Below, in pieces: positions 5,682 through 37,923 of a stretch of 42,745 nt of DNA. The position numbers were made by a program, and so were the translations under genes. Positions within the stretch are counted from its first letter, which is position 1; each line of letters starts with the position of its first letter. The notes under the pieces were generated by a model, which searched no databases, was not told the DNA's origin, and worked only from the letters and a program-made list of their open reading frames with translations. The DNA comes from Desulfobacterium sp. (GTDB lineage: Bacteria; Desulfobacterota; Desulfobacteria; Desulfobacterales; Desulfobacteraceae), in the NCBI GenBank assembly GCA_030145245.1, contig JAQYWC010000042.1, forward strand, positions 1 to 42,745. Direction: 5' to 3'.

Positions 5682-5909
5682 AAGAAAAGATAGGAAATTA
5701 ATTCCTATTGACTTTATACAAAAAAACAATTAACCCATACCAAGCTCTCGGGCATCCGCCCCATTGACGCACAGAGGACGAATCCCGGCCCCATACACAA
5801 CATGAACCGTAGATCTTTGCGCTTGAACCGATACCTGTTTTACCTGTTGTAATCAGAAATGGGCCCAGTTCATATGCGGGAAGCTATACTAGCCTTGAGA
5901 GAGAAAAGC

Positions 5910-8334: not shown

Positions 8335-8421
8335 TTGACCACCTCCTATAAGATCCCCCAATATCATCAGTATATTGATTTGAAATCCGAAAGAAGATGC
8401 ACCCCCAGAGCACCAAAGCCA

Positions 8422-14827: not shown

Positions 14828-17800
14828 ATGCAATACAGAATCGGCGCTTGTGACCTTGGGAAAGCAACGGCATCCTTTGCGGTTGCCACCATGACCGAAA
14901 ACGGCAGGATCACCCTGGACGATGTCCGGACCATTGAGCATAACGGACGGGTGCTGGACGTTTTTAAGACCTGGTATAAAGAGCATAAAATTGCGACCTG
15001 CCACAGCCTGGCAGCAACGGGGTTATACGCTGAACGCCTGCAAAATCCTGCGATTATCCTGCCGGAAGATACCTGCCAGGAAGTGCAGCTGGAGGCCCAG
15101 GCCTCTTTGCCGGATACCATGACCCTGGTAAGCGTGGGGGCCAGCGGCTACCGTGTGCTCTCCCGCACACTCTCTAAAGCAAGTGACAACAAAAAGACCT
15201 ATCTGTACCAGTTCCTTGAGAATGACAAATGTTCTTCAGGTACGGGGGAGAATCTTCAAAAACTGGTGAACAGGTTTGGATATACCATTGAACAGGCCGA
15301 TGAAATGGCCGTATCGGCCAAAAACGAAATCTCCATCACGGCCCGGTGCTCGGTTTTCGCAAAGAGCGAGATGACTCACTACGCCAACCAGGGCAAATCC
15401 CGTGCAGAATTGTTCAAGGGATATTTCGGCTCCATTGCAAGGAACGCAAAGGCCTTGTTGAAACGGAACCAGGCCCGGGGACCGGTCTATCTGATCGGGG
15501 GGTGCACCCGGATGGAATCGTTTCTGGAGGCATTTAGAAAGGATGCGGACACGGATGTTTTTGTCGCTGACAACCCAATGGCGTTTGAAGTCTCGGGTGC
15601 TGCAAGGATTGCAGGGGAGCAGCTTTTGGCCGGCAAGGCCGCCCTGTTGCCCGACAATCCGGAAGCGTTAATCTCTGAAGAGACCCTTAACTTTACCATT
15701 CATCCGGCGGCATCAGATTATAAAGGACAGGTCACCCTGATGCCGGCAATTCCACACGCAACCGACTGGCAGAAACGACCCGCCGTCATTGGCCTGGATC
15801 TGGGTTCCACCGGGGCCAAGGCGGTCCTGACCTGTATTAAAACAGGCAACCCCCTGCTGGATGTCTATGACCGGACCAAAGGCAATCCCGTGGATGCCTG
15901 CAGGAGACTGATCCGGGCCATCCTGGATCAAGGGCAGCCGGATATCAGGGGGATCGGGCTGACCGGATCTGGCAGGGAGGCGGTTGCCATTCTTGCGGAC
16001 ACGGTTTTCAGCGATCCGGATCAAACCCAAAACCAGGAAAGTCCCGAAACCCGGAGCCGAAGCAAAATATGTGTCCTCAACGAGATCGTCGCCCATACAA
16101 CCGCGGCCATCCATATGGACCCGGACGCAGGCAAGGATATGTCCATCATTGAAATCGGCGGCCAGGACGCCAAATATGTCCGGGTGAACAAGGGCAAAAT
16201 CATCGAAAGCGATATGAACAAAGCGTGCAGCGCCGGCACCGGGTCCTTTTTAGAGGAGCAGGCCTTGTTTTACGATATCCATGACATTGAAACCTTTATC
16301 GCCATGGCGGAAAACGCAAAAAGGCCGCCTGACCTGGGACAGATGTGCACAGTATATATTGCCGAGGCAGGTTCCAAGGCGCTCAAGGCAGGATTCCAGC
16401 TTGAGGATGTTTTTTCAGGGTTTCAATACTCCGTGATCCAGAATTACCTGAACCGCGTCATGGGCCAGCGCACCCTTGGGGAGAAAATTTTCTTCCAGGG
16501 AAAACCCGCATCAAACCCCTCCCTGGCCTGGACCCTTGCCGCCATCACAGGCCGCCAGATCATTGTGCCGCCCAACCCGGGAGCCATGGGGGCCCTGGGC
16601 ATCGGTCAATGCACCATCCGGGAAAAAGGGAGCCAAGCGTTACTGAACTCCCCATCCATGGACCTGTCACTCCTGCTGGCAGCACAGATCACCGGCCGGT
16701 CCGAGTTTACCTGCCGGGATTCAGGCTGCGGCACCCACTGCCCCATTGAAAAGGTGACCATCTCCTTTAACGGCACAGAAAAAACCGCCATGGCCGGAGG
16801 GGCCTGTCCAAAATATGAGCTGTCCAAAACAGGGACGGACAAACTCCCCAAAGACGCCCCGGATCCATTCAAGCAAAGGGAAGCCCTGGTCCGGTCATTT
16901 GAGAGCATCACCCCCGGAACCACGGTGATGGGGATACCGGTAACCGGTGCCCTGGCAAGCCATATTCCCTGGCTTGCCACCTTCCTGAAAACCCTGGGCT
17001 TTTCAGTGAAGCTGCTACAGTCGGACTCAACCTCCCTTGCCAGGGGCGAACAACTGTGCAACAGCTTTGATTCCTGCGGTCCGGTTAAAGTGGCCCATGC
17101 CATTTGTGACACCGACCTCCCCATTCTTTTTTTCCCAAAGATCATGGATTTCCCCGACCGGGACGGTCTTGGGGGCATGGCCTGTGTCACCGAGCAGGCC
17201 ATGCCGGAGCTTATAGAACAGTCATTAAAAGCCCGGGGCCGCAAGGTGGATCTGATCCGTCCCAGGCTCTACCTCCAGCAGGGACTGGCCAATCCTGGAC
17301 TGGAAAACCAACTGCTCAAAGCCCTGGAACCATACGGGATTGAGCACGACCAGATTAAAACCGCACTGGCCAAAGCCAAACAAAGCCAGCAGGACTATAA
17401 CAACGCATTGTCCGACATGGGCAAACAGGCCCTTGCCTATGCCCATGAAACAAATATCGCACCCATACTGGTCTGCGGCACCCTCCATGTAATCCATGAT
17501 GTGGCAGCCAATTCCAAGATCCCCACCATCATCCGGCAGAACGGCGCCATGGCCATTCCCATGGACTGTTTTCCCGTTCCCACCGGCACCCAGCCCATGG
17601 AACGGATCTACTGGGGGGATGCAAACCGGTATTTGCGGGCGTCCGAAGCCGCAATGAAGATGGGAACCGTCTATCCCCTGATGCTCTCTTCATTCGGGTG
17701 CGGCCCGGCCTCCTTTACCGAGCAGGTTTTCCAGGCCCTGCTCCAGGGGTATCCCCACACCATCCTTGAAAGTGACGGACATGGGGGAACCGCAGGATTT

Positions 17801-19117
17801 GTCACGCGGATTCAATCCTTTCTTCAATCCGTCAACCAGCACAGGCAAGAGACCGCAAATGAGCTGCCTGAAAGAACCTCCAACATCCGGTCCTATATCG
17901 ACAAGGGCAAATACGCCGGCCCCTACATGGACCGGCAGGTAAAGTATGTCTTTTTAAGCAGTATTGAATACCTGGGAGAGTTGTTTGCCTCGGTTTACAG
18001 CTCCTATGGCTATGATGCCGTAGCCGCCCCTCCCACCTCCAAGGAAAATATCGCCCTGGGAAGAACCGATTGTTCCGGCAAAGAGTGTCTCTCCTACCAG
18101 TTTGTCTGGGGGGCATTCAAAGAATACCTCATGAACAATCCCACCACCAAAGAGACAAGGCTGCTGCAAATTTCTGGCAAAATGTGCAGGGGAGGAATGT
18201 TTGGAATAAAGGACAGACTCTCCATCGAACGGATGGGAAACGATGACCGGATATCGGTATCCGCCCTCAGGATTGCCGGTGGACCCGCCATGACGGCCCG
18301 CTTGATTTCAGGCCTCACCGCCCTGGATATTGTCCGCCAGCTCTATCTGTACCATCTGGCCGGAGAAGCAACACCGGGTATCTCTGAAGCCGCATATCGA
18401 AAATACAGCAGCAGAATCCTTAAAATCATCGGGTCCGGCTCCAAACCCGGTTTCAAAGGCGCATGGACCAACTCCCGGCACTGGAAAAAGTTAAAACAGG
18501 TGATGGATGACGCCTCAACCGCTTATTTCAACATCAATGCCCAAAGAGACGCCCAAAAGGACTATAAAACAATCTTTGTCTCAGGAGATATCATGACAAA
18601 AGGCAATGATGTGGCCAATGCCGGTATCTTTAAAAGTTTATCAAAAAAAGGGATACGAATCATTGCCGAGCCCAATTGTGATTTCTTCGACTTTACTGCC
18701 CGGGCACACCCGGAGTTGATTTTTGGGAGCGGCAGTTCAAGAAAACAGGACAAAATGTACATCTTTGGCATGGATTTGATTCGGAACACCCTGTATAAGA
18801 TCACGCACACCCACCACCCATGGCTTCCCATACCGGATATGAAGACCGTGCTGGAAAGATCGGCAGCGGTTATCGATCCGAAAACCGCCGGCGGATCAGG
18901 CTATGCCGTTGGCAGTGTCCTGCATTACTGGGATAAGCTCGATCTTGACGGCGTGATGATGACCTCCTGCTGGGGATGTGATAACAGTTTGATCGAAGAG
19001 AGCCTGCTCAGGCACCACAAGGAGATTCCTTTTTATTTTTTCTACGATGATGGAGATCCCCTGGATGAAAGGCGGTTGAGCAGTTATTCCCACCGGCTGC
19101 ATCGCAGTAACGGGTAA
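14828..19117 (+). CDS. Giant BcrA/BadF/HgdC-type CoA-dehydratase activase, fused multi-domain form
   Basis: The 1429-residue protein contains two ASKHA ATPase modules. The first (1-280) has KCSSGTG (C135) and [10 protein letters not shown] (C174). The second (about 315-590) has [36 protein letters not shown] and [11 protein letters not shown]; paired cysteines of this kind hold the bridging [4Fe-4S] cluster of activases. A DUF2229-like segment follows ([33 protein letters not shown]), then a long HgdB-like C-terminal region. Canonical activases use ATP to inject a low-potential electron into 2-hydroxyacyl-CoA dehydratase or benzoyl-CoA reductase. The role of the large fused forms is unsettled, and no dehydratase gene lies nearby. 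The first module's N-terminal phosphate loop is degenerate. AGGAG precedes the ATG. Confidence 0.88.
18998..19084 (+). repeat. Direct repeat, copy A: 3' end of the activase gene (partner at 23464-23550)
   Basis: These 87 bp inside the activase gene recur at 23464-23550 with five mismatches by eye. The match ends 33 bp before the activase stop. Confidence 0.9.
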
Positions 19118-21544: not shown

Positions 21545-21588
21545 TGACCAAGCCACTGCATATGGGCAAGCCAGGCGCTATAGATTGA

Positions 21589-23070
21589 TCAGAACTCAGG
21601 AGACATCTCCGGTAGGCTTTCGGAATATATACCCTCGCACAGATCGTTATCCACCGTCACATTGCCCATGCCGTCAATGGTCACGGTCCAGACGGTATCA
21701 TAGTCGGTGCTCGGCCATTTAATCGGAAGATATGAGGACTCGGATCCACCATAACTTTCGAGGAGAGCATTGATCAGGGGCTTGATCCGTGAAGATTCCC
21801 ACGCCAGCAGAATGGTTTGATTGGAGAACGTGCCGCCGGTGAAGAAAAAATCACTTGCGAGCTGGTCCTGGTTCTTATCCCCTATATAAAAATTGGATAC
21901 AAGACGGTAGGGCAGGTTGTTGGCGATAACATAGGGCAGTACCGTTAATGACGGCCTGACGTAGGACACATTGAGATGGCCGGTATAGAGCCACTGTGCG
22001 GGGTCGATGGAATAAACCATATCGGGGCTTATTTTGCCGTCCAGGGCATTCGCAAGATCCAATGCGCGCCATTGCCCTGCACCCACAAAGTTACCGTCTT
22101 CAAAAAGGTTTTTCGGATCAGGATGTGCTTCTGCGTGCCGGACAATATAAATTTTCTCGTTGGTGTTGATGGCCGCCGGAACGACGACGCCATTAACTCC
22201 TCCGGTGCGTGAGGTGCTGAAATTGGGCTGCAGATCGTATGAACATGGAATTCTCTCCACCGGCAAGGGCAGCTCCGGATATGTGGAAGGCGGATCCAGA
22301 TGACTGTCGTAGGTCGCCAGGCTGGCGACTTCCGACGGATTGACGGAGATCGCATAGACCCTGTTCGGCCCCATATAGGTCGTCGGAATATCAAGGTTAT
22401 AGCCCTTCTTCTGGTTGATACTTGCCATCAGGGCATTGACGGTTTCCCAGGGTGCGGAAAAAACATAAAAGCCTGGAACGTTGGCAGTAATGATACCGGT
22501 GGCCAAGTCAACATTGTCGTCTGCCGTGTCGTTGAAAGCAAGCCCCTGGCAATCCGGGCAGAAGTCTTCCGGTGCTACCACTCCATCAGGCAGGGATCCC
22601 GGACCATAGGCTGCATGGATAGGATAGCTGTAGGCCGTATAAGAGGAATCCGTACCATAGAGGGGTAACGTGATCTGGTTGAGAAGGGCAAACGGCTGTA
22701 TGGACCCGATGCCTGCCATGTCAGGGTAATTGTTATCGGTCTGCAAATGGGTCATGGGTGCGAGGGCGTGTATGGCGGTGACGTTTTCCCCTCCCAGCAC
22801 ATCCTCTTTCAGGTATGTGGCCATCATGAGCGAACGCTGCAATCCCTGAGGGGTAAGATTTGCCGTGTCCGGATCGATGTCGCCGGGTTCGTTGTAAGCC
22901 AGATCCGCACTTACAACGAAGATCAGATTGATGTTGTTCTCGCTCAGCGGTGCAGTCACAGAGGAACTGTTGTCATTGAAACAGCCGCCTGTCCATATGG
23001 GCAAGGAGAAAATAAGTATTCCGATTAAAAAGACTGAATAGAACCTTATTTGCTTATTGTCTGTTTTCAT
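21589..23070 (-). CDS. Histidine phosphatase-superfamily-like lipoprotein
   Basis: The 493-residue protein has a signal peptide whose lipobox ends in GGC (C30), so it should be a lipoprotein. A first domain (about 47-290) precedes a second with the histidine-phosphatase signature YIVRHAEAHPDP (R311, H312), where the histidine would form the phospho-intermediate. LAYNEPGD...NLTPQGLQRSLMMATYL in the first domain looks like a degenerate RHG-type start, so the protein may hold two related domains. Convergent placement with the Tat phosphoesterase suggests a shared periplasmic phosphate-ester function; that is inference. Confidence 0.7.
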   Translation of the reverse strand: MKTDNKQIRFYSVFLIGILIFSLPIWTGGCFNDNSSSVTAPLSENNINLIFVVSADLAYNEPGDIDPDTANLTPQGLQRSLMMATYLKEDVLGGENVTAIHALAPMTHLQTDNNYPDMAGIGSIQPFALLNQITLPLYGTDSSYTAYSYPIHAAYGPGSLPDGVVAPEDFCPDCQGLAFNDTADDNVDLATGIITANVPGFYVFSAPWETVNALMASINQKKGYNLDIPTTYMGPNRVYAISVNPSEVASLATYDSHLDPPSTYPELPLPVERIPCSYDLQPNFSTSRTGGVNGVVVPAAINTNEKIYIVRHAEAHPDPKNLFEDGNFVGAGQWRALDLANALDGKISPDMVYSIDPAQWLYTGHLNVSYVRPSLTVLPYVIANNLPYRLVSNFYIGDKNQDQLASDFFFTGGTFSNQTILLAWESSRIKPLINALLESYGGSESSYLPIKWPSTDYDTVWTVTIDGMGNVTVDNDLCEGIYSESLPEMSPEF

Positions 23071-23194
23071 AAAACGCCTTTACATAATTGATGGTTTGTT
23101 AACTCTGTTCTGAGCATTTTTTATCAGATTCCCATGTCACAGAATGTGCTTGTTTTATCACAAAATGCGAACTGCCGATCGAAGGCCGATACCT

Positions 23195-23395
23195 TCATTT
23201 CGAAACTGATGACACCCTGCTGATAGGGGTTTTTATGTTTTGCGTTGCTGTATATCTTGTTTCAGAAAAACACTTATTGCATTCTTTGCAAATAAACAGC
23301 TGCCGCAGACCACTAGGAATAGTGGGATATCCTTTGAATACTGATGTGTTTGATGATCCGCAGTCCGGACATTTTAAAGCGCCTTGTTTTTTCAT
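23195..23395 (-). pseudogene. Truncated IS1-like transposase N-terminal zinc ribbon
   Basis: This 66-residue frame reads KCPDCGSSNTSVFKG...CKECNKCFSETRYTA followed by KTPISRVSSV, the zinc-ribbon start and first helix of IS1/IS1595-type transposases, and then stops; the catalytic domain is absent. No strong ribosome site precedes the ATG. It probably marks an old insertion sequence near the right end of the block bounded by the duplicated activase fragments. Confidence 0.55.
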
Positions 23396-23463
23396 GGCAA
23401 TCTTTAAAGCATAAAATACACGTTTTGAAAAGGGAGATTTCAATTATATGAACCCAGTCCCAC

Positions 23464-23550
23464 GAGAGCCTGCTCAGGCACCACAAGGAGATTCCTTTTT
23501 ACTTCTTCTACGATGATGGCGATCCCCTGGATTAAAGGCGGTTGAACAGT
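23464..23550 (+). pseudogene. Orphan 3' fragment of an activase gene, direct repeat copy B
   Basis: It matches 18998-19084 over 87 bp with five differences. It reads [23 protein letters not shown] in frame, then TAA where the intact gene has GAA. Three of the changes are synonymous, so this is a diverged allele or paralogue rather than free-drifting DNA. It ends three bases before the stop codon of the convergent LysE-type gene. Confidence 0.85.
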
Positions 23551-23553
23551 GAT

Positions 23554-24165
23554 TTACAGTGTCAAAACGCGAAGAGCGATAACCAGCAATACGGTTCCGG
23601 TCATCCGGTCGATGAGGCGGGCATGCTTCCTGAACCAGTCAAGGCACCGTCTTCGAGAAAGAAAAACAGCCACCAGGCAGAACCAGGCGCCATCGATCAG
23701 GAGAGGGGTCAATACCATCACAAGGCTGACGGTCCACCCCATATCAGGAGAGACGAACTGGCTGAACAAGGCGAGAAAGAAGATCATCAGCTTGGGATTC
23801 AGCAGGGAGATCATCAGTCCATCCCTTGCCGCTTCCAGCACACCGGCTTTGTCGGCACTTATGCTCTCCCCCAGGGAAGCCCCGTTGGAACGAAGGGCCT
23901 TGATCCCCAGCCAGGCAAGGTAAGCGCCCCCGCCCCAGGCCACCCCCTTTTGCAGGGAGGGTTCAAGGGCAAGAAGCGCCGCCAGTCCTGAGACGGTAAG
24001 CAATGCATAAAAACCGACCCCCAGACAGTGGGCCATGCCGGTGACCATACCATTACGCCGGGAGCCACGAACGGTGTGCCGCATGACAACGGCAAGGCTC
24101 GGACCGGGACACGCGGCCCCCAGAAAGCAGATACCGGCGATTGAAAGCCATGACATAAAACCCAT
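23554..24165 (-). CDS. LysE/RhtB-family amino-acid exporter
   Basis: The 203-residue inner-membrane protein has about six hydrophobic segments and the LysE/RhtB signature GAACPGPSLAVVMRHTVRGSRRNGMVTGMAHCLG in the first loop, plus LLNPKLMIFFLALF in the middle. Such proteins export amino acids or related metabolites using the proton gradient. The ATG has AGGAG six bases upstream. A LysR-type regulator gene lies upstream on the same strand with a perfect palindrome between them, a common arrangement for regulated exporters. Confidence 0.87.
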   Translation of the reverse strand: MGFMSWLSIAGICFLGAACPGPSLAVVMRHTVRGSRRNGMVTGMAHCLGVGFYALLTVSGLAALLALEPSLQKGVAWGGGAYLAWLGIKALRSNGASLGESISADKAGVLEAARDGLMISLLNPKLMIFFLALFSQFVSPDMGWTVSLVMVLTPLLIDGAWFCLVAVFLSRRRCLDWFRKHARLIDRMTGTVLLVIALRVLTL

Positions 24166-27779: not shown

Positions 27780-27871
27780 GAAACCGATCAGCCATAATTT
27801 CAAATTTTTCTTACATTAACCTGCGCAATGAGAATAAAAAACAACATTTGTTATGTTATGGAAAATCTTTT

Positions 27872-27985
27872 ATGCAGGGTTCGTGCAGATTTGCCCAGGA
27901 AAACGGGCGTACACCGGAACAGATCATTGGGATTCAAACCATCTGGAGCTGGTCTATCGAGACTATTGATCTGCGGGAATTGTGA
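27872..27985 (+). pseudogene. Possible orphan C-terminal gene fragment
   Basis: One plus frame of 37 codons reads like the end of a real protein (FAQENGRTPEQIIGIQTIWSW, then SIETIDLREL and TGA). It lacks a ribosome site and has no known family. It sits in the otherwise gene-free region between the cupin and Crp/Fnr genes, so it may be an orphan 3' end. Confidence 0.25.
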
Positions 27986-28099
27986 TATAGTACCCATGGG
28001 GCTGCGAACCCTATACGAATTCCTTTTGTGAATTTATAGGTGTGCAGTTTCCCTATGTGGTAGGATAGTTGTAGCGGATGTCGAAATGAGGAGGGAGTC

Positions 28100-28768
28100 A
28101 TGAATGAAAACTGTTACAATTTTTCTAAAGATCAAAAGGTAAATTTTATTATCGAGGGGATGAACACATGTTGGAAAGATATCATCCACTTGGCGAATTC
28201 GCACTCATTCTCCAAGGGACAAGTCGTTGATCAGGCTGACGATGGCGTGTATCTGATAAAGGAGGGATATATTAGCTATAGTTGTTATTTGCATGGTGGT
28301 GAAAGACGTATTTTATATTTTGTTGGACGAGACTCGATATTTAATGAAGCTGGCTGTATGATCAATCTTAAGGGGCGTGTTTCATTTGAGTTCTTGACTG
28401 ATACCCAAGTATACGCTTTTCCTTCAAACATATTTATGGATGTCAATTTTGTTCGTTCATATCCTGAATTATGCATTAACCTCTCACAGTATATAATTTT
28501 TAAGCGGATATATCTCAGTCATTTCGTAGCGAATCTTTCCAACAACAAACCGATTACACGGGTGTCTGAAATCCTTTTTCAATTGTATGAGAGTCAAAGC
28601 AAGTTCACAATCACTCAGCTAGATATCGGCAATTTTCTAGGTCTCCATCAAATGACAATTTCCAGGGCTCTATCCCAACTTCGTGGCGAGAATATTATCG
28701 GCAAGATAACGAAGAATAACTTTGAGATATTTGCCCCTGAACGACTTTCTGAATACGCGCAGTGGTGA
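28100..28768 (+). CDS. Crp/Fnr-family transcriptional regulator
   Basis: The 222-residue protein has a cyclic-nucleotide-binding-like beta-roll (about 30-130: FSKGQVVDQADDGVYLIKEGYISYS...RRILYFVGRDSIFNEAG) and a C-terminal winged helix with TQLDIGNFLGLHQMTISRALSQLRGENII. The N-terminal Fnr-type cysteine cluster is absent, so it is not a classic [4Fe-4S] Fnr. AGGAGGGAG precedes the ATG. It is divergent from the cupin-BFD-BFD gene, the obvious candidate target. The ligand is unknown. Confidence 0.87.
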   Translation: MNENCYNFSKDQKVNFIIEGMNTCWKDIIHLANSHSFSKGQVVDQADDGVYLIKEGYISYSCYLHGGERRILYFVGRDSIFNEAGCMINLKGRVSFEFLTDTQVYAFPSNIFMDVNFVRSYPELCINLSQYIIFKRIYLSHFVANLSNNKPITRVSEILFQLYESQSKFTITQLDIGNFLGLHQMTISRALSQLRGENIIGKITKNNFEIFAPERLSEYAQW

Positions 28769-28769
28769 A

Positions 28770-28979
28770 AGCCATAGAAGGGAATATTAATCCGGCACCT
28801 TTGGGAATTGGGGCGAAAACCCTCCATGTCAATGTAGACCAGGGAGTCGGAATCCCCTTTCCATTGAGTTCCATAAAGCTGTCGGCAACCGGATCATACA
28901 GAAAGGCCGGATCGTGTCCGGCCATGATCAACCTGAGCTGTTTGGCAGCCAGCATGATTTCCACGTAAAAAAGGGTCAT
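28770..28979 (-). pseudogene. Decayed beta-propeller-like fragment
   Basis: The frame continues that of the WD40-like ORF just upstream after an in-frame TAG at 28995-28997. It contains propeller-like sequence (LRLIMAGHDPAFLYDPVADS) and then runs into the 3' end of the convergent Crp/Fnr gene. There is no ribosome site. Together the two pieces look like the residue of one larger gene. Confidence 0.3.
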
Positions 28980-28994
28980 AAACTGACAGGTGAC

Positions 28995-29273
28995 CTAGGT
29001 ATCCTGGCAAAGCAAGCGGTTGATTTCAGTCACCATCTCAGACAGATCTCCGGGCTGGCCGACACGGCACCGCAAAAAGGCCATGGCCACCTCATTGTAA
29101 TCCACACTCAGCAACCTGTCCTGGCCGTGCATGAATGCAACATGTTTTGCCCCATGGTCAATTATTTGAAGCAGTTCACATGTATCGGCTGACCAGATAC
29201 GGATCTTTTTATCGCCATTTATGGCTGCAATTCTATTACCGGCTGAATCTATTTCACGTATAGCAATACCCAC
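28995..29273 (-). CDS. Short WD40-like ORF (probable gene remnant)
   Basis: The 92-residue frame starts with GTG and has GAGGAG eight bases upstream. Residues 1-60 look like one to two WD40 blades (GNRIAAINGDKKIRIWSADT, CELLQIIDHGAKHVAFMHGQD), far too few for a closed propeller. The frame ends at TAG and resumes open beyond it, so truncation by a nonsense mutation is likely. The function of any intact parent is unknown. Confidence 0.45.
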   Translation of the reverse strand: MGIAIREIDSAGNRIAAINGDKKIRIWSADTCELLQIIDHGAKHVAFMHGQDRLLSVDYNEVAMAFLRCRVGQPGDLSEMVTEINRLLCQDT

Positions 29274-29490
29274 AACATTTACTCCTCTGGCATGTCCTTA
29301 AAAAACAACACCCTGGTCTTTCATGGTACTTATTCTATCGGACAAATCGTACGGTCAGGTTGATGGTCTGTGTCAAAAAGCAGAGGACAATATCAGACTG
29401 TTACAATAATAATAAAAAAATTTTAATTAACTCCCTTGGGTAGGGTCGATTATTCATAGCACAAACACCAATCACTTTAGGAGAGATGAT

Positions 29491-30648
29491 TTGACAAAAA
29501 AGAAGTGTCCAGAATTAAAACTGACCCGGTGCAGACAGATGATCACGGGAATTCCCGGACACCCCCCAATCCATGACGGGGCTGTCATCCATGATGGTGC
29601 TGTCATCCTTGAGACCGGATCCTATACAGAGCTTAAGCACGCTTATTCAGGCCCTGTCACGGACCTGGGAGGGGTGACCATTGTGCCCGGACTGGTCAAT
29701 CCCCATTGCCATCTCAAATTATCAAAGCTCAAGGGGAAAACCCTATCCGGTCAGGGATTTCTCTCCTGGATGTTGAGCATGATGGCCAATGATTACAGAA
29801 CAACGGATTTTGATGCAGTTACAACCGCTGTGGGTGAGGCCAGGGACCTGGGTATCTGCTGTTTTGGCGACATCCTGCCCCCCCGGGGATACGGCCATCT
29901 CCGACATACTCACTAAGATGGGGGTGTATCATACATGTTTTTGCGAAGCCTTTGGCTTTTACCCATGGACCCGGCAACCTGTGCCATTCCCTATAAAAAG
30001 ACCAGAACATCTGCCATTGCAGGGGCGGGCCATGCCCTGTACACCACCGGTGCGGATGTTTTGCAGGCGATTAAAACCCAGGACTTAAGACACGGACTTC
30101 CATTTTCCATCCATATGGCAGAGCATGAAGATAAAACCGGGATGCTCATGGGTGAAAAAACGGGCTTTTATAAACTGCTTGAAGAAAACAATCTGCTGGG
30201 CGCAAGCTACTCCCCGCCCATGAAAACACCGGTTGAATATGGACGGGATCTGGGACTTCTGGACAATACCACCCTTGCCGTGCACTGTGTGCATCTAACC
30301 GATAAAGACCTGGAGATCCTTGCTGCCACCGGGACAAATGTATGTCTCTGCCCCCGGAGCAATGAATTTATCGGTGTGGGACGGGGTCCCTGGGAAAAGA
30401 TACTGGCTGCGGGAATCTGTGTGAGTCTGGGAACAGACAGTCTCGCCTCCAACCATGATCTGAACCTCTGGAATGAACTGTCCTATTTTATCCGGGAAAT
30501 TAACCTGGATCTTTCCATGTCAGACGCCATTCCCCTGGTCACCCATAACCCTGCAAAGGCCCTTTTAATGGATGACAGGCTGGGCACCCTTGAAAAAGGA
30601 AAGCTGTGGAGGTATGCCGTCATGCCTGATAAAATGGCAGACTTGTAG
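29491..30648 (+). pseudogene. Amidohydrolase (MqnX/SAH-deaminase-like) with two compensating frameshifts
   Basis: The gene reads MTKKKCPELKL...VPGLVNPHCHLKLSKLKG (HxH metal motif), then HMAEH, HCVHLTD and GTDSLASNHD, the ordered ligands of metal-dependent amidohydrolases of the SAH/aminodeoxyfutalosine deaminase type. At a seven-C run (about 29879-29885) the frame shifts. Removing one C restores GDILPPGDTAISDILTKM. At about 29960 (TTTACCCATGG) a base is missing; adding one C restores GFYPMDPATC. Both changes lie in C runs, so they may be sequencing errors rather than mutations. The start is TTG 29491 with AGGAG seven bases upstream. The substrate is not certain. Confidence 0.75.
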
Positions 30649-30669
30649 ATTATTAGTTTAATTCTTTAA
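30526..30669 (+). repeat. Direct repeat, copy A: 3' end of the amidohydrolase gene (partner at 33575-33718)
   Basis: About 144 bp covering the last 41 codons and some 3' flank recur at 33575-33718. By eye there are about seven mismatches in the first 125 bp, and the match fades after the A-rich tail. Confidence 0.9.
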
Positions 30670-30700
30670 AAAAGGTGTCAAAACGGATAGGAGGATTTGA

Positions 30701-31435
30701 TCAGTTCAGAAAGTCGGGCAAATGACGTTTATCAAGCCCGAAAGTAAGGAAATTCAACAGGTCCGGGTGGTGCTCGTGCATATGCTTTTCAATGGCGTGC
30801 CATGAAGTGGCATAGGGGGTCCGTTTACCGTGATATTCAACGGATGGGCCTACCTGGGTGAACACAAAGCCGAATTTGCAGAGGGCATGGAACAGTTTGT
30901 CTTCTGTAATTATGTACATATGTGAGATGCCCAGCTCTTTGCATTTCTGGTAAACGGTTTTGTACAGGCCCATAATAATCACAGGCTTTTGCCGTTTTTC
31001 CACACCAGGGTTGTTTTTATTGGGAACATCTGATACGCCCCCTTGGGGTTGAGGAATATAGGACTCCACGCCGTGAATACCGTCTTCAGGTCTGCGACGC
31101 ATGGTTTTGGACACGGCCAGGCGAGATACTTCAGTGATGTGTTTGGGGGCGGGCTTGGCCTTGAAGCCCGTTATTTCGGAGGCATGTTCGACAGGAAATC
31201 CTTTTTCAGAATCAAGGATCATCCTCACAGTGCCGATTACCTCGTCGTATTCATTGATGGACACGAAGTGAACGGAGTGGTCGTCATATTCATCCGTTTC
31301 AAGCTTATTTGGGAAATCGGACGGATTTTCAAATCCAAATTCCAGAGAATAGACTTCATATCTCAACCGAAAAATCTGTCTGCGAAGGTCATCGGAATCT
31401 ACTTCCTTGAAACGGGAATTCCCATATTCAAACAT
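30701..31435 (-). CDS. PEP-CTERM/exosortase system-associated acyltransferase
   Basis: The 244-residue protein has a LuxI-like/GNAT fold pattern: FRLRYEVYSLEFGFENPSDFP near the start, DDHSVHFVSINEYDEVIGTVRMI, and HITEVSRLAVSKTMRRR in the middle. This matches the acyltransferase family that accompanies exosortase systems (TIGR03694-like). Its product is not known; autoinducer-like or lipid-modifying roles have been suggested by fold. GGAGGG lies six bases before the ATG. No exosortase gene is in the window, but a PEP-CTERM remnant lies in the same block at 33193-33560. About 70 AT-rich bases (31440-31510) upstream probably hold its promoter. Confidence 0.85.
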   Translation of the reverse strand: MFEYGNSRFKEVDSDDLRRQIFRLRYEVYSLEFGFENPSDFPNKLETDEYDDHSVHFVSINEYDEVIGTVRMILDSEKGFPVEHASEITGFKAKPAPKHITEVSRLAVSKTMRRRPEDGIHGVESYIPQPQGGVSDVPNKNNPGVEKRQKPVIIMGLYKTVYQKCKELGISHMYIITEDKLFHALCKFGFVFTQVGPSVEYHGKRTPYATSWHAIEKHMHEHHPDLLNFLTFGLDKRHLPDFLN

Positions 31436-31557
31436 TTGAGGCCCTCCGAATTATAAGTTTATATGACAAGAATTTGATTTTTTTGATTTTAACGGATAGA
31501 TATATTTATATATATTTTTAACCCATAGGAAGTCAAGTTGAAATATACAAGATCGTG

Positions 31558-33192
31558 TTATTTTAATTCGTGCCCGGTAAGTTGAAATTCAAAGGGTTGG
31601 TATCGGCCTGGTGAAATAACGCCATTTGGATCAAGAGCTGTTTTTATATCTTTTGTCACATTCCAGAAAACTTGTGAATTGCCGGCAAGTTTCTTCATCG
31701 TATGAATATTCGTTCTGTAAGGCGCATAGCCTTCTTCCATAATTAATTTAAAAAGTTCATCGTAGCATTCTTTTGCTTTAACAATCTCCTCGGGATTTTC
31801 CCTGTCAAACGAGATGGTAATAACACTAACCATAGCGCGCTCTGTGATCAGTGAAACCGTTATCAAAGGCTCAAAATCGAATTTTTTAAAAACAGGGTTT
31901 ACCATGCGGATTAAATTTTGGGCTGTATCCCCTGTCATCGGCATAATAGGCGAAATCCACAACAGGCCTGCATTATGATCCAGCGGATCAATGGAATTTG
32001 TTTTTAACCCGCCTTTAACCCGCCATAATGTACCGAATAAAAAAGCATCTGTGGGCGTTCCTTGAATTAATCCGTATACTTTTTCCAGCGCTTTGAGCTT
32101 GGTATTAAATTCAGGCAATAGATTTGATTTTTCAAGTATGTGCGATATTTTTTTCCCCAAAGCTATGGTTTTATCGCCAATAAACTGAAGCTTCCCAAGC
32201 CCTTTCATTGCTTTTTTCAACTCTTTTTTGTTGTTTTTAACCTGACTCTTTGATCCATAGATCGCCCCGCTTATGTTCCAGGCGCCGAAATTGCCGCGCC
32301 TGCAAAAAAGATTTCGTAAATCATCACTTAACGGTGTTTTATTTTTCGCCATCTCCCAAGGATACCGGTTGAATGACGAAATAACCCTTAGATCATTTCC
32401 AATATGTATTAAACTTTTTATTTGCCCGCTCAATTTAAGGGGGCGGAGGGTTTCAATAACTTTGGAAAGATCGTCGTCTTTCGGAACAGCACAAAAGAAC
32501 ATCTTGCAGCACTCTGGTTCCGGCATGAGCCAGATACCAAGTTTTGTTACAATACCAAAGTTTGATTGGGTAAAAATACCGTCAAGATAGGGGCCTATCC
32601 CATACCTGAAAACATGTGTTGCTTTGGCATTTTTATAGTGGCCGAAACCAGTGCTTATTTTTCGGCCATCTCCGAGAACCACTTCCATTCCGCAAGAATA
32701 CAGAAAATGATCTCCATACGGGGTGTGTCCGAAACCGCGTTCAAGGGTGTTGCCTATAATGCTTGCTTCAGGTCCTGATCCGGTGCAGTCCAGCCAAAGG
32801 GGGAGTTTTTTATCTTTTAGGTAATTATGAAGCAGAATTTGAGTAACACCCGGTTCTATGACGGCATAAGCAAGCTGTTCGTTTACTTCCAAAATCCTAT
32901 TCATTCTTGACAGATCAACTATGACCTGGCCTTCATGGACGGCACAAGCTGATCCGTAGCCCCAGTTTCTCCCTTTGCTTATTGGGTAAAGTTGAACTTG
33001 ATACTGGTTAGCTATGGTTACGATTTTTTCAATTTCAGCACTGTTTTCAGGTTTTATAACAGCTTTCGGCATTACGTTTTTTGACAGTGTCGTTCTGGAA
33101 TAAAGAAGGAGGGTGGCTTGATCCTCCAGAACAAACTCATCGCCGATGGTATCTTTTATTAATTGCAGGGCTTTATTGTTATTGGGCTGCAT
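31558..33192 (-). CDS. VAO/PCMH-type FAD-binding oxidoreductase (4-cresol dehydrogenase-like flavoprotein)
   Basis: The 544-residue protein has an N-terminal FAD-binding PCMH domain: PISKGRNWGYGSACAVHEGQVIVDLSRMNRI, the IEPGVTQ strand, then GSGPEASIIGNTLERGFGHTPYGDH. A C-terminal VAO-type substrate domain ends near ALDPNGVISPGRYQP. Members of the vanillyl-alcohol oxidase family oxidise phenolic or hydroxy substrates, often with covalent FAD and a cytochrome partner; no cytochrome gene is adjacent. GGGAG precedes the ATG. The gene is AT-rich and lies in the block bounded by duplicated amidohydrolase 3' ends. Confidence 0.8.
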   Translation of the reverse strand: MQPNNNKALQLIKDTIGDEFVLEDQATLLLYSRTTLSKNVMPKAVIKPENSAEIEKIVTIANQYQVQLYPISKGRNWGYGSACAVHEGQVIVDLSRMNRILEVNEQLAYAVIEPGVTQILLHNYLKDKKLPLWLDCTGSGPEASIIGNTLERGFGHTPYGDHFLYSCGMEVVLGDGRKISTGFGHYKNAKATHVFRYGIGPYLDGIFTQSNFGIVTKLGIWLMPEPECCKMFFCAVPKDDDLSKVIETLRPLKLSGQIKSLIHIGNDLRVISSFNRYPWEMAKNKTPLSDDLRNLFCRRGNFGAWNISGAIYGSKSQVKNNKKELKKAMKGLGKLQFIGDKTIALGKKISHILEKSNLLPEFNTKLKALEKVYGLIQGTPTDAFLFGTLWRVKGGLKTNSIDPLDHNAGLLWISPIMPMTGDTAQNLIRMVNPVFKKFDFEPLITVSLITERAMVSVITISFDRENPEEIVKAKECYDELFKLIMEEGYAPYRTNIHTMKKLAGNSQVFWNVTKDIKTALDPNGVISPGRYQPFEFQLTGHELK

Positions 33193-33560
33193 GGTAAACG
33201 ACTCCCTTTCAGTATAAACACACCAATGCGGAGCAAGATTAAATGAAAAATGTGAAATATGAAAAGGGCATGATCTATATGCCCTCTGCCCTTTTTATTA
33301 AAAAAACGCAATAGAGTCAAGTTAGTTCTAACTGCGACCCCAAGAAGACCGAACCCAAAAAGAAGCAATGTGGTCGGCTCGGGGACGATGCCAATCCTGA
33401 ACTGCCCATTCGCACTTAAGTAGAAATCGTCAGGCGGAGTATTCGCCGCTCCTCCCGGGTAAAGGGATAGGACGTAACTTTTTGTCAACAAAAGTATAAA
33501 AAAAATCCGCAATCTTCTGGGAATACTGAAAACCCATTGCCGGTGGGAAACAGCCTTCAA
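33193..33560 (-). pseudogene. PEP-CTERM protein remnant (C-terminal sorting signal)
   Basis: A minus frame contains DDFYLSANGQFRIGIVPEPTTLLLFGFGLLGVAVRTN split over 33321-33430: the PEP motif, a hydrophobic helix and a basic residue, the C-terminal signal recognised by exosortase. The frame upstream is not protein-like and is cut by the duplicated fragment at 33575; downstream it runs on without the expected short basic end. So only the 3' end of a PEP-CTERM gene survives. Confidence 0.65.
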
Positions 33561-33574
33561 AACTTTCGTGAGCA

Positions 33575-33718
33575 GCCATTCCCCTGGTCACCCATAACCC
33601 TGCAATGGCCCTTTTAATGGATGACAGGCTGAGCACCCTTGAAAAAGGAAAGCTGTGGAGATATGCCGTCATGCCGGATAAAGTGGCAGACTTATAGAGT
33701 CTTAGTTTAATTTTTTTA
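33575..33718 (+). pseudogene. Orphan 3' fragment of an amidohydrolase gene, direct repeat copy B
   Basis: It matches 30526-30669 at about 94%. It keeps the reading frame to a stop (AIPLVTHNPAMALLMDDRLS, then the KLWRYAVMPDKVADL end), with Lys-to-Met and Gly-to-Ser changes. It overlaps the 3' end of the convergent solute-binding-protein gene, whose stop is at 33702. Confidence 0.9.
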
Positions 33719-34457
33719 AAAAAGTATCTATAATTTTATCAATGGTTCCCTCAGCTACCAACTGCTCCATGGTCTTGTTAAACAGGGGCAGCTCGTCAGC
33801 ATAGGGAGACTTTTTAGATATCGCCATATGCACATTGATTTGACGATCATACTTAAAGACTGCTTTTTCAAATTTCCCATAAAAGCCCTCGGAAAGGATC
33901 AGATAGTCAATGTGTGTCCCCGTGCCTATCAAAGCATCCAGTCTGTTTTTTTCTACCTTCCGTAAATTTTGAAGATCTGTGGCTATTGGGTATTTCAGGA
34001 TCCTTGAATCACTGTCAAAAGGTTCAAAGTACCTGGATCCGATGGTGGTTCCAATGTTTAAGTTAAACAGATCTTCGTATTTCAGAATACGATTTTTTTG
34101 CCCCTTGGGAACATAAAATGCTTTTGTTGAACTTGTTTTATAGGGAGGCTCAACATAAAGCATGTATTCCTCCCTTTCCGGTCGTCTCAACAAACCGGTA
34201 ATGATATCGCCCTTCCCAAGCTCCATCATTTTAAGGCAGCGCCTCCATGGGTAAGGGATATAACGGGGCTTTAAATCCAGCCTGCGGGTGATCTCTTTTA
34301 CAATTTCAATGTTGATGCCATGGATCGGTTGTGGTTTGGTGATTGACCATGGTGGATAATCTTCAACAAGGACTATTATTTCTTTTGCCAGTGAAGGACC
34401 GTGGCAAAAAAGCACGCCCAAAAACAGGCATGAACAAATATATTTTTTTAATTTCAT
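33702..34457 (-). CDS. Periplasmic amino-acid-type solute-binding protein (SBP_bac_3-like)
   Basis: The 251-residue protein has a signal peptide (residues 1-24, ending PSLAKE) and then the family-3 binding fold: VEDYPPWSI, HGINIEIVKEITRRLDLKPRYIPYPWRRCLKMMELGKGDIITG, and a late FNKTMEQLVAEGTIDKIIDTFLK. No ABC permease or ATPase genes are adjacent, so it may be a sensor-type or orphan binding protein. The ATG at 34457 has GGAG seven bases before it and lies four bases after the stop of the GNAT-like gene, so it is the last gene of that operon. Its 3' end overlaps the duplicated amidohydrolase fragment. Confidence 0.82.
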   Translation of the reverse strand: MKLKKYICSCLFLGVLFCHGPSLAKEIIVLVEDYPPWSITKPQPIHGINIEIVKEITRRLDLKPRYIPYPWRRCLKMMELGKGDIITGLLRRPEREEYMLYVEPPYKTSSTKAFYVPKGQKNRILKYEDLFNLNIGTTIGSRYFEPFDSDSRILKYPIATDLQNLRKVEKNRLDALIGTGTHIDYLILSEGFYGKFEKAVFKYDRQINVHMAISKKSPYADELPLFNKTMEQLVAEGTIDKIIDTFLKKLN

Positions 34458-34461
34458 GACA

Positions 34462-35330
34462 CTACTCCACAGGGTACAGCGGATTAACCGGCTGCCCCAG
34501 CCGTTCATGGTCCTGCCGGATATATGCGGCAAGCGCCTTGGCAGCCGGATCATGGAGAGAGACCTCCGCCCAGGCAGGTGGTTGGGGCAGCTTCTGCATG
34601 ATCAATCCGTCCGTACCGAACCAGAGGGGCAACAGGCCGCCGAAAAGATACCCATGTTCACGCAATTGACTGATGGCCCGGGGGGTTGCCCGGTCCCCCA
34701 GGTTCATATACATCTGCACCAATCCGCCCGGGCCTGCATTGGATTCGGCTTTTGCCACCACATCCTGAAAATCCATGCCGGCCGTTTGAACCGTAATCCG
34801 GGCAAAGTTGGCCTGGGGCAATAAAAACGCATTAAAGTCCGTGAGCCCGGTTGGATCATTTCCCTTACCGATCCGCCGGTCCAGCCCAAGCCTGCCGTAA
34901 AGGTCTGAAATAACATCCCCATGGGCTTCAGGCAGATAGACGGCATGGCTCCGGTCATTACGGACATCAAAGGTGAGCAGCAACGAGACATTGCGGCTGC
35001 CGGCTCTCTCCCTGGAATAGGCCGTGGCGGGCATGCACTCAAGCTCCAGGCCGGTTGCCTGATGGCCATGGTCATGGGACAGGCGCTGGAAGACCGTATG
35101 GTTGCACACAGCCTCGGTAAAAATCACCGGCAGCCCAAGGGATTGGGGCAGCACTTCAAGAATATGCCGGGCAATCTCTGATGATATCCGGCCGCTGCGA
35201 TAGGGTTTGAGCAGCATGAGCTGACCGGCCTCGTAGATATCAGGATTGGGGGCATGGCGGGCAGCCCCAGCTTCAACAACACCGACAGCACGCTGCCCTG
35301 CCCCATGTTCATCGTTTTTTCTTTCATCAT
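34462..35330 (-). pseudogene. GNAT-like protein, paralogue of the HATPase/GNAT protein's C-terminal half, with a -1 frameshift
   Basis: The main frame (35217-34462, 251 residues) lacks a start. An ATG at 35330 overlaps the TGA of the preceding aminotransferase as ATGA and opens MMKEKTMNMGQGSV followed by LSVLLKLGLPAMP. At a five-C run (35248-35252) one added C joins this to PNPDIYEAGQLMLLKPYRSG in the main frame, giving about 289 residues. Its tail (ISQLREHGYLFGGLLPLWFGTDGLIM) resembles the tail of the 36444-37739 protein (MGKAIMDNGFVPKLVLPYGGKSDILV). It is a broken gene or a sequencing error in a C run. Function unknown. Confidence 0.65.
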
Positions 35331-36451
35331 CGGCCCTGGATCTCCTCCATCACCGGTCTGAAAACCCGGCAGAACTCCTCCATGACCGGCTGCTGGACCA
35401 GGCTGATGCGAATCCAGTTGGGAAACCGGAAACCGGTCATGGTGCGGACCATTATCCCCTGGGTCATGAGTTTGCGGTACATGAGGGTATCTGAGACAGG
35501 CACCTTGACCATGAGATAATTGCCCTGGCCGCACACATGGGTCAGTCCCAGTTCATCAAACAGGGGGCAAAGCAATGCCTTGGCCTCCCGGACCATTTCC
35601 CGGGTCGCCCGGATAAAGGAGCCGTCATTGGTCAGGGCAGCGGCAGCCGCTCTCTGGGCCAGGGTATTAACCGAATAGACAATGTGGGTCCGCCGTATCA
35701 CCCCCACCATTTCAGCATTGGCACACAGGTACCCGATGCGCAGGGATGCCAGGGCATACATCTTGGAAAACGTCCTGAAGGTCACCACATTGGGATATTG
35801 CTCCACCAGGGCCATGCCGTCCGGGAAATCATCATTTTCCACATATTCGCAATAGGCTTCGTCAATGACCACAACGGCACGGTTGTCCACGGCATCCAAA
35901 AAACCTTTCATGGTCGACCTGTCCCAATAGGTGCCTGTGGGGTTGTTGGGATTGCAGACAAACAATATCTTGGTATGCCGGTCCATGGCATCCAGCATGG
36001 CCTGGGGATCAAACCCGTTGTCCTTAAGGGGAATCAACCGCGCTTCAAACCCGGAGAACTCGGCCACCCACTCATACACGGCAAAGGTCTTGTCCGCCGT
36101 GATGATATTGTCCCCTTTTTCACAAAAGGCCTTGATCACCGAGGCGATGACCTCGCAGGAGCCGTTGCCCACTAAAAACTGCTCCGGATCCTTGTCAAAC
36201 CGTTCAGCCAGGGACTGGCGGAGGTCAAAACAATCCCCGTTGGGGTAGACAGGCACAGCCATGGGCGTAAACCCTTCCACCACCTGGGCCACTTCAGGGG
36301 GCGGCCCCAGGGCATTTTCATTGTTGTTGAGCCGGTGGAGATGATCCACACCATACAGCCGCATGAGTTCCGGGTCTGGCTTACTTGGATAATATGCCTC
36401 AAAGGCCTGGATATAACTGGGAACCAGTTGGGTATAATCAAAATTATGCAT
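35327..36451 (-). CDS. HisC-like PLP-dependent aminotransferase
   Basis: The 374-residue class I/II aminotransferase has RLNNNENALGPPPEV near residue 39, GNGSCEVI near 98, FVCNPNNPTGTY near 166, DEAYCEY near 199 and the PLP lysine in TFSKMYALASLRIGY. It resembles histidinol-phosphate aminotransferases, but no other his genes are nearby, so its substrate may differ. The ATG at 36451 overlaps the end of the upstream gene (ATGCATAA) with no good ribosome site, indicating translational coupling. Its TGA overlaps the next ATG. Longer starts upstream would lie inside the preceding gene. Confidence 0.85.
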   Translation of the reverse strand: MHNFDYTQLVPSYIQAFEAYYPSKPDPELMRLYGVDHLHRLNNNENALGPPPEVAQVVEGFTPMAVPVYPNGDCFDLRQSLAERFDKDPEQFLVGNGSCEVIASVIKAFCEKGDNIITADKTFAVYEWVAEFSGFEARLIPLKDNGFDPQAMLDAMDRHTKILFVCNPNNPTGTYWDRSTMKGFLDAVDNRAVVVIDEAYCEYVENDDFPDGMALVEQYPNVVTFRTFSKMYALASLRIGYLCANAEMVGVIRRTHIVYSVNTLAQRAAAAALTNDGSFIRATREMVREAKALLCPLFDELGLTHVCGQGNYLMVKVPVSDTLMYRKLMTQGIMVRTMTGFRFPNWIRISLVQQPVMEEFCRVFRPVMEEIQGR

Positions 36452-37739
36452 GCTGGAACACCAGAATATCGGATTTACCGCCATAGGGCAGGACCAGCTT
36501 CGGCACAAACCCATTGTCCATGATCGCTTTGCCCATGGCCGCCTGCCATCCATGGGCCAGGTCGATGCGGATAAAGATATTGAAGATCTTCTCCCGGTGC
36601 AGCATCTCAACATACCGGGCAATACATTCGGCAGCGTCCCCACCGGTCACCATGGGAAAAAGGGTTGCTTTCCCTGCATCCGGCCTGAGCTGCACGGAAA
36701 AAACAGAACGTTCAGGCAGGCGTTCCCCCTGCCCTTCAATGATTTTAAGATCCCGCATGAGAATCTGCCGATGGTATGCTGCTTCAAGGAATTCTGCATA
36801 GGCCCTGTGGGCCCAGACAGATGCGCCCATATCCTCCCTCAGATGACGATACCAGACCCCCTGCTCCGATTTTTTGCCATCCCTTTGGATCAGATCCAGG
36901 TGCCCCAGGGATTCAAAATCCTCCGTGGGCAGGCTGGTGGTGGCCGACTCACTGAACAGGCCCATGGCCCTTGTCCGGGCCACTGTATTGATAAGGTGTT
37001 TTGTCAGGAGATCTCCGGCCTGTCCGTCCGTGGTAAATATATATGGCCCGGAAAAGCTGATCCCCTGTTCAGAAGGTGCCTGCCAGCAGATCATCCCGGC
37101 CAGGGCACCGCTCCGGTCTGTTGCCACGGCAATCTCCAGGTCCTTTTGCCCAACCATGTCGACCACCTTACCCGGGGTGAAAAACGCCTGGGGCACGGCA
37201 TCGGAAGGATAGAGCCCCAGGGCCTTGACACAGGCGACTTTAATCAGTTCAGGTTCCGGATCCCGGACAATGGTCAATTCCCCCCTGGTCTCAACCGGCT
37301 GGATCAACCCGGGTGTGACAACCGGATAAGCCCGGTCCTTCCGCAGCCCCAGGTGCAGGGTATCCCCTTCAAACCCCAGGGTAAATCCATCCACAGCCCT
37401 GGAAGCCACAAGCAGTCCCAGGTGATCAATCTCCTCCTGGGTATCTGTTTTTGTCACAAGGTTCATGGCCCATAGATCTGACGCATCGGCCTTAAAAGAA
37501 AATTCAACCCGCACATGCCACCCCCCCGGCTCAAGGCGAAAACGGACCTGGGTTCCAGGGGCCATTCTGGCCAGGTGGACCACGATCTCTTCGGCCGCAA
37601 CGGTCAGCATCATTGTTTTGCTGTCATCCAGTCCGCACACCGGCGCCCATTTTTCAACAACAGACTGAACCAGGGGCACCCAGGCAATATCGGCCGCAAG
37701 TGATACTGAAACCGATTGATCAAAACCCTTCATAAGCAT
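36444..37739 (-). CDS. HATPase-like (RsbW-type) / GNAT two-domain protein
   Basis: The 431-residue protein has an N-terminal anti-sigma-like HATPase module (LTVAAEEIVVHLARMAPGTQVRFRLE near 45, then LGLLVASRAVDGFTLGFEGDTLHLGL). The N-box asparagine is not evident, so nucleotide binding may be lost. A GNAT-like region (about 165-310: EPELIKVACVKALGLYPSDAVPQAFF, LEIAVATDRSGALAGMICW) and a C-terminal domain shared with the gene at 34462 follow. GAGG is five bases before the ATG. It leads a coupled operon with the HisC-like aminotransferase, the GNAT-like paralogue and a solute-binding protein. The target is unknown. Confidence 0.7.
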   Translation of the reverse strand: MLMKGFDQSVSVSLAADIAWVPLVQSVVEKWAPVCGLDDSKTMMLTVAAEEIVVHLARMAPGTQVRFRLEPGGWHVRVEFSFKADASDLWAMNLVTKTDTQEEIDHLGLLVASRAVDGFTLGFEGDTLHLGLRKDRAYPVVTPGLIQPVETRGELTIVRDPEPELIKVACVKALGLYPSDAVPQAFFTPGKVVDMVGQKDLEIAVATDRSGALAGMICWQAPSEQGISFSGPYIFTTDGQAGDLLTKHLINTVARTRAMGLFSESATTSLPTEDFESLGHLDLIQRDGKKSEQGVWYRHLREDMGASVWAHRAYAEFLEAAYHRQILMRDLKIIEGQGERLPERSVFSVQLRPDAGKATLFPMVTGGDAAECIARYVEMLHREKIFNIFIRIDLAHGWQAAMGKAIMDNGFVPKLVLPYGGKSDILVFQHA

Positions 37740-37923
37740 CCTTTCCTCTTATTAAAAAAATAACGAGCCCATGAGGATTACCCGTTCAATGCCCATGTGT
37801 CAAGCCCCTGGGCAATTTCAGGTATCATTACTTTTGTCTTTGAGTATTGTTTTTTGCAATCAACAGTACCACCAGGGACAGTCGGTATATCAGACAAATT
37901 CAGGCAGACACTCACAACCTTTT

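Follow-up and report, generated by a model that had tools for sequence, protein, structure and literature searches.

A duplicated junction of two convergent genes bounds a 2.9-kb block of extra DNA in a Desulfobacterium genome

The window analysed here is a whole stretch of 42,745 nucleotides from Desulfobacterium sp. (contig JAQYWC010000042.1, assembly GCA_030145245.1). Its own genome, G000, is a draft of 83 contigs and 6,418,480 bases. Self-comparison returns a direct repeat on the forward strand, 30526-30679 and 33575-33728, in which 142 of 154 bases are identical (92.2%, E=4e-59), so that the left and right copies differ at 12 positions. A shorter pair, 30526-30669 and 33575-33718, had been picked out earlier from the letters alone; it is real and sits within the longer repeat. 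Searched at E<=0.001, the entire 6.42-Mb genome yielded no third copy. Each copy consists of the last 123 bp of an amidohydrolase gene, a 4-bp spacer and the last 27 bp of a convergent gene for a solute-binding protein (SBP). The sequence-only reading described the orphan as an amidohydrolase 3' end abutting a convergent gene, which holds for the amidohydrolase part; because the last 27 bp of the SBP gene are included, what is repeated is the convergent junction and not the amidohydrolase end alone.

The amidohydrolase gene (29491-30648, plus strand, stop codon at 30646-30648) runs into the left copy, where the SBP remnant occupies 30653-30679. It is disrupted, with open reading frames at 29491-29916 and 29935-30648; comparison with the intact relatives in G024 and G004 puts the stretch near 29880-29970 in a different frame, and the main frame has a stop. 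The event had been thought to leave the gene intact, and in fact the reading frame is broken. The convergent partner, identified by an SBP_bac_3 domain match, lies at 33702-34553 on the minus strand, and the right copy terminates inside it. Rfam gave no match at the gathering threshold in 27800-36000, and the window contains no tRNA.

Between the copies lie 2.9 kb of extra DNA. The genes it encloses are all on the minus strand, as was already apparent from the letters: a PEP-CTERM/exosortase-associated acyltransferase (30701-31435; TIGR03694, 192 bits; PF13444), a GlcD-like FAD-binding flavoprotein (31558-33192; PF01565) and an ORF with a PEP-CTERM sorting-signal remnant (33159-33560). The first two are open, while the PEP-CTERM gene is truncated toward the right copy and reduced to its C-terminal signal. 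Relatives of the flavoprotein at 66-69% identity occur in G009 and G032, each preceded on the same strand by an ORF (311 and 249 aa, respectively) with a signal-peptide-like start. Read by eye, these upstream ORFs offer a lead, namely that they may be PEP-CTERM proteins paired with the flavoprotein. The block's final 77 bp (33498-33574), together with the bases up to 33584, form an internal fragment of an IS91-type (Zn_Tnp_IS91/Y2_Tnp) transposase gene on the minus strand, whose intact relative in G002 carries both domains; no Y2_Tnp match was found in G000 at E<=0.001. The joint between this fragment and the amidohydrolase fragment falls within seven shared bases, GCCATTC, a microhomology. 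A Pfam scan of the two intact cargo proteins found no integrase domain, and the locus itself is ordinary as to function.

Short dispersed repeats aside, the block DNA has no second match in G000 and none in the congener G001. One such repeat, of about 38 bp at 33440-33480, has the palindromic core TTTTTGTCAACAAAA; its 23-base core gives 9 matches with at most 4 mismatches in a 1.52-Mb sample of G000 (window included), and the repeat also occurs in G001, G004 and G034 beside unrelated sequences. A plasmid origin of the cargo was rejected, since plasmid relatives, of which the flavoprotein has 75 records and the acyltransferase one, all stay below 60% identity, as was a viral one, with no viral-contig relative of the acyltransferase confirmed. 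For the flavoprotein, no relative was confirmed in genome contigs by a search that finds close relatives only and may leave out records near the window.

Among 58 genomes searched, seven, including G000 itself, have a match to the locus. Four match over long stretches (G000, G001, G024 and G004), and the other three, G021, G011 and G019, over 57-141 bp only. Other genes adjoin the amidohydrolase in G024 and G004. In G001, a member of the same genus, the amidohydrolase, one junction and the SBP gene follow each other with the block absent, and this is the empty site. Its single junction can be aligned to the left copy as far as 30679 and, beyond that, to the right copy up to 33757. At the left joint, 30679/30680, the similarity with G001 breaks off at the same point as that with the right copy, and by comparison with G001 the resident SBP gene has been cut to 27 bp. 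The G001 locus has decayed in its own way: its amidohydrolase also lacks about 200 bp, and its SBP gene is broken by deletions. A further difference lies to the right, at 35253-35260, where G001 has 2.65 kb more and the window has an 8-bp direct repeat as its joint; the start of gene 34462-35217 lies in the 2.65-kb part absent from the window. To judge from this 8-bp joint, short-homology deletion probably also operates in this genome.

The two copies are not equally distant from the empty site. Over the 154 bp, G001 differs from the left copy at 7 positions and from the right copy at 15. From the pairwise counts, private differences number 10 in the right copy, 2 in the left and 5 in G001 (10 versus 2: two-sided binomial p about 0.04). 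The same step appears on a larger scale. Mismatches between G000 and G001 amount to 30/727 (about 4%) in the stretch before the left copy, to 85/898 (9.5%) over 33575-34950, beginning with the right copy, and to 48/1493 (3%) onward to 36443, the middle tract differing from its left flank at p=2e-5 and from its right flank at p=3e-10. A change-point search covering 29751-30525 plus 33575-36443 placed the best segment at 33602-34959, with a 2dLL of 48.6 against at most 16.7 in 100 shuffles made on a coarser grid. The raised-divergence tract, taken as 33575-34959, thus extends about 1.2 kb past the end of the repeat. The step recurs at third codon positions, with 34/234 mismatches in the tract versus 33/462 to its right (p=0.003) and 13/233 in the amidohydrolase (p=0.002), which makes relaxed selection alone a weak account. 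At its right end the step falls within one gene, where the third-position counts (16/132 versus 4/89) are suggestive only. The background is itself uneven: 36660-37739, outside the change-point test, has 60/1080 mismatches (5.6%; 35/360 at third positions), and 100-base bins at 37753 and 29851 hold 19 and 8, respectively.

A first case of the same kind had been reported from the letters elsewhere in the window, and it exists. Its copies, 18998-19088 and 23464-23554, both on the plus strand, are 93.4% identical over 91 bp; the left is the 3' end of a BcrAD/BadFG-family gene (14828-19117), and the orphan, which ends 29 bp before the stop codon, abuts a convergent LysE gene. The copies differ from each other at 6/91 positions and from G001 at 7 (left) and 9 (right), which does not discriminate between them, and comparison with G001 reveals no clear divergence step. 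At this site G001 has a different 1.4-kb stretch, in which another solute-binding gene is apparent by eye. A probable insertion-sequence remnant with a zinc ribbon (23257-23461; Pfam scores under the curated cut-offs) lies just before the orphan. Window positions 21545-23441, a part of the first-case block that takes in some of this remnant at its right end, occur at another place in G001 (contig C176), where the orphan 3' end has no match. In contig C25 of G001 (L063, about 2500-2830), an IS91-type remnant, recognised by eye, is fused to the zinc-ribbon remnant of window 23336-23419, and the fusion runs through the shared sequence GAATACTGA. The window also carries tandem 78-bp and 282-bp units at 1-288 and 1795-2322, within a long ORF (3-2660) for a repetitive protein.

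The self-comparison was extended to 1,519,633 of the 6,418,480 bases of G000 (24%), a non-random sample in which C4, C10, C49, C80 and part of C68 were chosen from earlier matches and the other contigs by number or length. Repeat pairs 50-600 bp long were counted over 1.12 Mb of G000, paralogues and non-coding repeats included. At spacings of 0.7-12 kb there are 30 direct pairs and 1 inverted, and at 12-100 kb 16 and 4. The corresponding figures are 15 and 0, then 22 and 41, for G002, and 91 and 2, then 35 and 11, for G033, whose local direct pairs belong for the most part to a single array (120957-128170 of the G033 stretch). Because this array dominates, the raw counts are not comparable between genomes, and only counts of orphan gene fragments were therefore used for that comparison. 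The direct bias is local, as predicted by tandem duplication or by insertion-duplication.

Orphan fragments were defined as matches with no ORF of 100 aa on the matching strand that lie close to a parent ORF no shorter than 150 aa. In G000, 16 such matches merged to 13 events, 0.4-12 kb from the parent ORF and all 13 direct; they are not fully independent, parent starts being assigned mechanically and two events on contig C15 being adjacent. Gene-3'-end repeats of the kind that the sequence-only reading proposed to look for thus recur in the sample. Eight of the 13 events come within 50 bp of the parent's stop, against 1.39 expected under uniform placement, and without the two window events the count is 6 of 11 (expected 1.26, P=0.0004). 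At parent 5' ends there are 2 of 13 (expected 1.40), and 5 of 13 do not touch a 3' end. G002 plus G033 (0.8 Mb) yielded 5 events, one at a 3' end and two at 5' ends; the 3' excess is thus shown for G000 only. Survivorship can produce such an excess. For the upstream gene to stay functional, the joint has to lie at its stop codon or beyond it, and between two convergent genes, both of which end there, no promoter is touched, which makes joints just past the stop the least harmful ones. We infer that the 3'-end pattern is mostly survivorship.

For the window locus itself, we put at about even chances that it is the scar of one import from a diverged relative, with a homologous crossover on the right and an illegitimate joint on the left. 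The ancestral order would have been a right-facing amidohydrolase and a left-facing SBP gene with a single common junction, as in G001. A piece of DNA from a relative about 9-10% diverged would have carried the cargo block, the IS91 remnant, a 5'-truncated amidohydrolase end, the junction and the SBP gene. Its right arm would have recombined with the resident chromosome near 34959, and its left end would have been attached, by an illegitimate joint, at a point 27 bp within the resident SBP gene. The left copy would then descend from the resident junction and the right copy from that of the donor. The copy differences and the divergence step fit an import into G000 whose left edge is the block, and the tract to about 34959, seen against one congener, is read as the import's homologous arm and suggests homologous recombination at the right end. 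We infer the donor, the direction of transfer and the illegitimate nature of the left joint; no donor genome was found in the searches made. A ComEC-family gene is present in G000, G001, G002 and G033, which is no proof of competence, and Ku has no match in any of the four. Several observations count against an import. Part of the divergence may be decay in G001, whose SBP gene is broken, or G001 instead of G000 could hold imported DNA; the background divergence is uneven; a diverged old tandem copy would yield the same step; and the GCCATTC microhomology sits at a joint that an import would place in the donor. Known recombination processes nevertheless suffice to explain the locus.

The main alternative, possible although we regard it as rather doubtful, is that the amidohydrolase-SBP pair was instead duplicated in tandem, that the two units suffered complementary losses and that other DNA later entered the redundant middle. 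Both copies carry both gene ends in the same order, and the first unit keeps the amidohydrolase (with 27 bp of SBP) where the second keeps the SBP gene (with 123 bp of amidohydrolase), a colinear and complementary loss. The excess of private differences in the right copy could also come from an old duplication with differential loss, and the uniformly direct orientation of the sampled fragments is what duplication would leave. Elsewhere in G000 there are loci of this type. On contig C17, query positions 3-1236 and 3583 onward are 53 bp apart in G001, and G000 has about 2.35 kb extra, with a 3' remnant of the right gene (which we take to encode a histidine-ammonia-lyase-like protein) on its left side, 46 bp of the left gene's 3' end on its right side and internal left-gene remnants in the middle. 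The intact left and right genes lie outside, all pieces are colinear and G001 has a single unit; by sequence, these remnants look like what a decayed tandem duplication leaves. On C5 (L113, 8966-9144 versus 12017-12674), a two-gene orphan is split into three colinear pieces, with overlaps of 4 and 12 bp between their ends; it is a decaying duplicate eroded by short-homology deletions. C15 (L157, 6532-15747) is a good candidate for duplication and loss, with parent A, a 5.2-kb stretch, a fragment of B, a fragment of A and parent B in succession; the 5.2-kb stretch occurs in G001 as a single piece at another place and in G002 as two main pieces next to each other, and the G001 contig ends inside the parent gene. 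C10 and C80 have 3'-end orphans about 0.7 and 1 kb away; the C10 parent is absent in G001 and G002, and C80 is rearranged in both.

At the window locus, however, the block duplicates nothing found in G000 and has no DNA counterpart in G001, so that an extra insertion is needed, and self-comparison finds no further amidohydrolase or SBP remnant of at least 40 bp in the block. The divergence step would in addition require a duplication predating the G000-G001 split, its long persistence and losses separate in each lineage. Import is preferred over an old tandem duplication because one event suffices. The import-like tract here and the decayed-duplication remnants on C17 give no support to the single common mechanism that had been proposed, no shared boundary motif is apparent in the flanks on an informal look, and a dedicated recombinase finds no counterpart in the cargo proteins. 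The genome-wide idea of recurrent gene-3'-end repeats was partly right.

Two further accounts strike us as improbable. Circularised DNA holding the block and a short junction piece, integrated by a single crossover, would leave an insertion flanked by direct copies, the very geometry seen here, yet a crossover in the 154-bp segment does not predict divergence for about 1.2 kb beyond the repeat. We give equally little credence to convergent 3' ends as true hot spots in this genus, at which breaks or stalled forks would start copying or joining and yield kilobase-sized inserts with direct copies of both ends at a rate well above that elsewhere. Still less likely, and to our minds very improbable, is a degenerate site-specific integrative element aimed at a gene 3' end. 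Blocks bounded by tRNA-3'-end-like copies, recognised by eye, do occur on C4 of G000 (60955-74547 and 143541-148095). The cargo proteins here lack an integrase domain, however, the left copy, which should be the element-borne one, is the one that resembles G001, and the first-case orphan ends short of the stop codon. Of the C4 blocks, those at 61-74.5 kb (L073) are successive, bounded by four tRNA-3'-end-like copies (with the CCA end, by eye) plus a terminator-like sequence (955-1073, 5672-5790, 8347-8456 and within 14148-14547), and are probably tandem tRNA islands; at L077, 3541-3646 and 7990-8095, a partial tRNA-like sequence (by eye) with a terminator-like hairpin is duplicated about 4.4 kb apart at 95% identity. 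Genomic islands in tRNA 3' ends likewise have direct copies of a gene 3' end at their borders; the present locus differs in its integrase-free cargo proteins, its protein-gene end and its reversed copy relationships.

An assembly artefact, conceivable in a draft of so many contigs and with the two block joints seen in no second assembly, is highly improbable, for the copies differ at 12 of 154 positions and lie within a contig, and both outer adjacencies are independently present in G001. Transposon target-site duplications are short (2-14 bp), exact and beside the element ends; 154 bp is too long, and the IS91-type piece is an internal fragment truncated on both sides. Diversity-generating retroelements show differences at template adenines and a reverse transcriptase nearby; here the substitutions are mixed and not adenine-specific, and no reverse transcriptase domain was found in the window proteins scanned.

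Gene order in bacteria is quick to change, and the steps are rarely visible because the scars erode. This genome appears to keep many comparable, datable scars, each with a parent gene, a block and an orphan fragment, and two of them, the window case and C17, have an empty site in a congener. Such scars could help to tell whether gene-order change is due to import or to duplication and loss, and could help to test the SNAP hypothesis on gene order. In the literature searched, nothing was judged closer than three described systems. The first is homology-facilitated illegitimate recombination (HFIR), documented in the laboratory, in which linear DNA is integrated through homology at one of its ends and through an illegitimate joint at the other, mostly with 3-10 bp of microhomology (PMC3240628). 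The locus shares with it the one homologous end, the one non-homologous joint, the gain of foreign DNA, the loss of resident DNA and the kilobase scale; it differs in that the homologous region is partly kept twice and in that the event is old and reconstructed (PMC3240628). In the test described there, most recombinants instead had partial duplications of homologous gene ends, of 109-950 bp in 14 sequenced clones (PMC3240628).

The second is tandem duplication under SNAP, with its direct orphan fragments beside a matching gene copy. Pseudogenes with matching active copies were proposed there as the remains of old duplications, and a search for them as a possible test (PMC7055797). That proposal concerns large duplications under dosage selection, whereas the units here are small and nothing shows selection (PMC7055797). 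Third, displaced 3' ends in Rhs and type VI effector loci, tentatively ascribed to HFIR-like events, resemble the locus in that new DNA arrives at a gene end and the old 3' region is left downstream; the present locus has neither a modular toxin nor a repeated array, and the ends of both genes occur twice (PMC5361080). More generally, illegitimate recombination has been described as the likely source of much small-segment diversity, with 10-18% of the variable segments in the alignments concerned flanked by direct repeats, mostly shorter than 30 bp (PMC2884548). Finally, the 5.6-Mb genome of Desulfobacterium autotrophicum HRM2 has more than 100 transposon-related genes and many rearrangements and duplications (PMC2702500), in line with the litter of remnants in G000.
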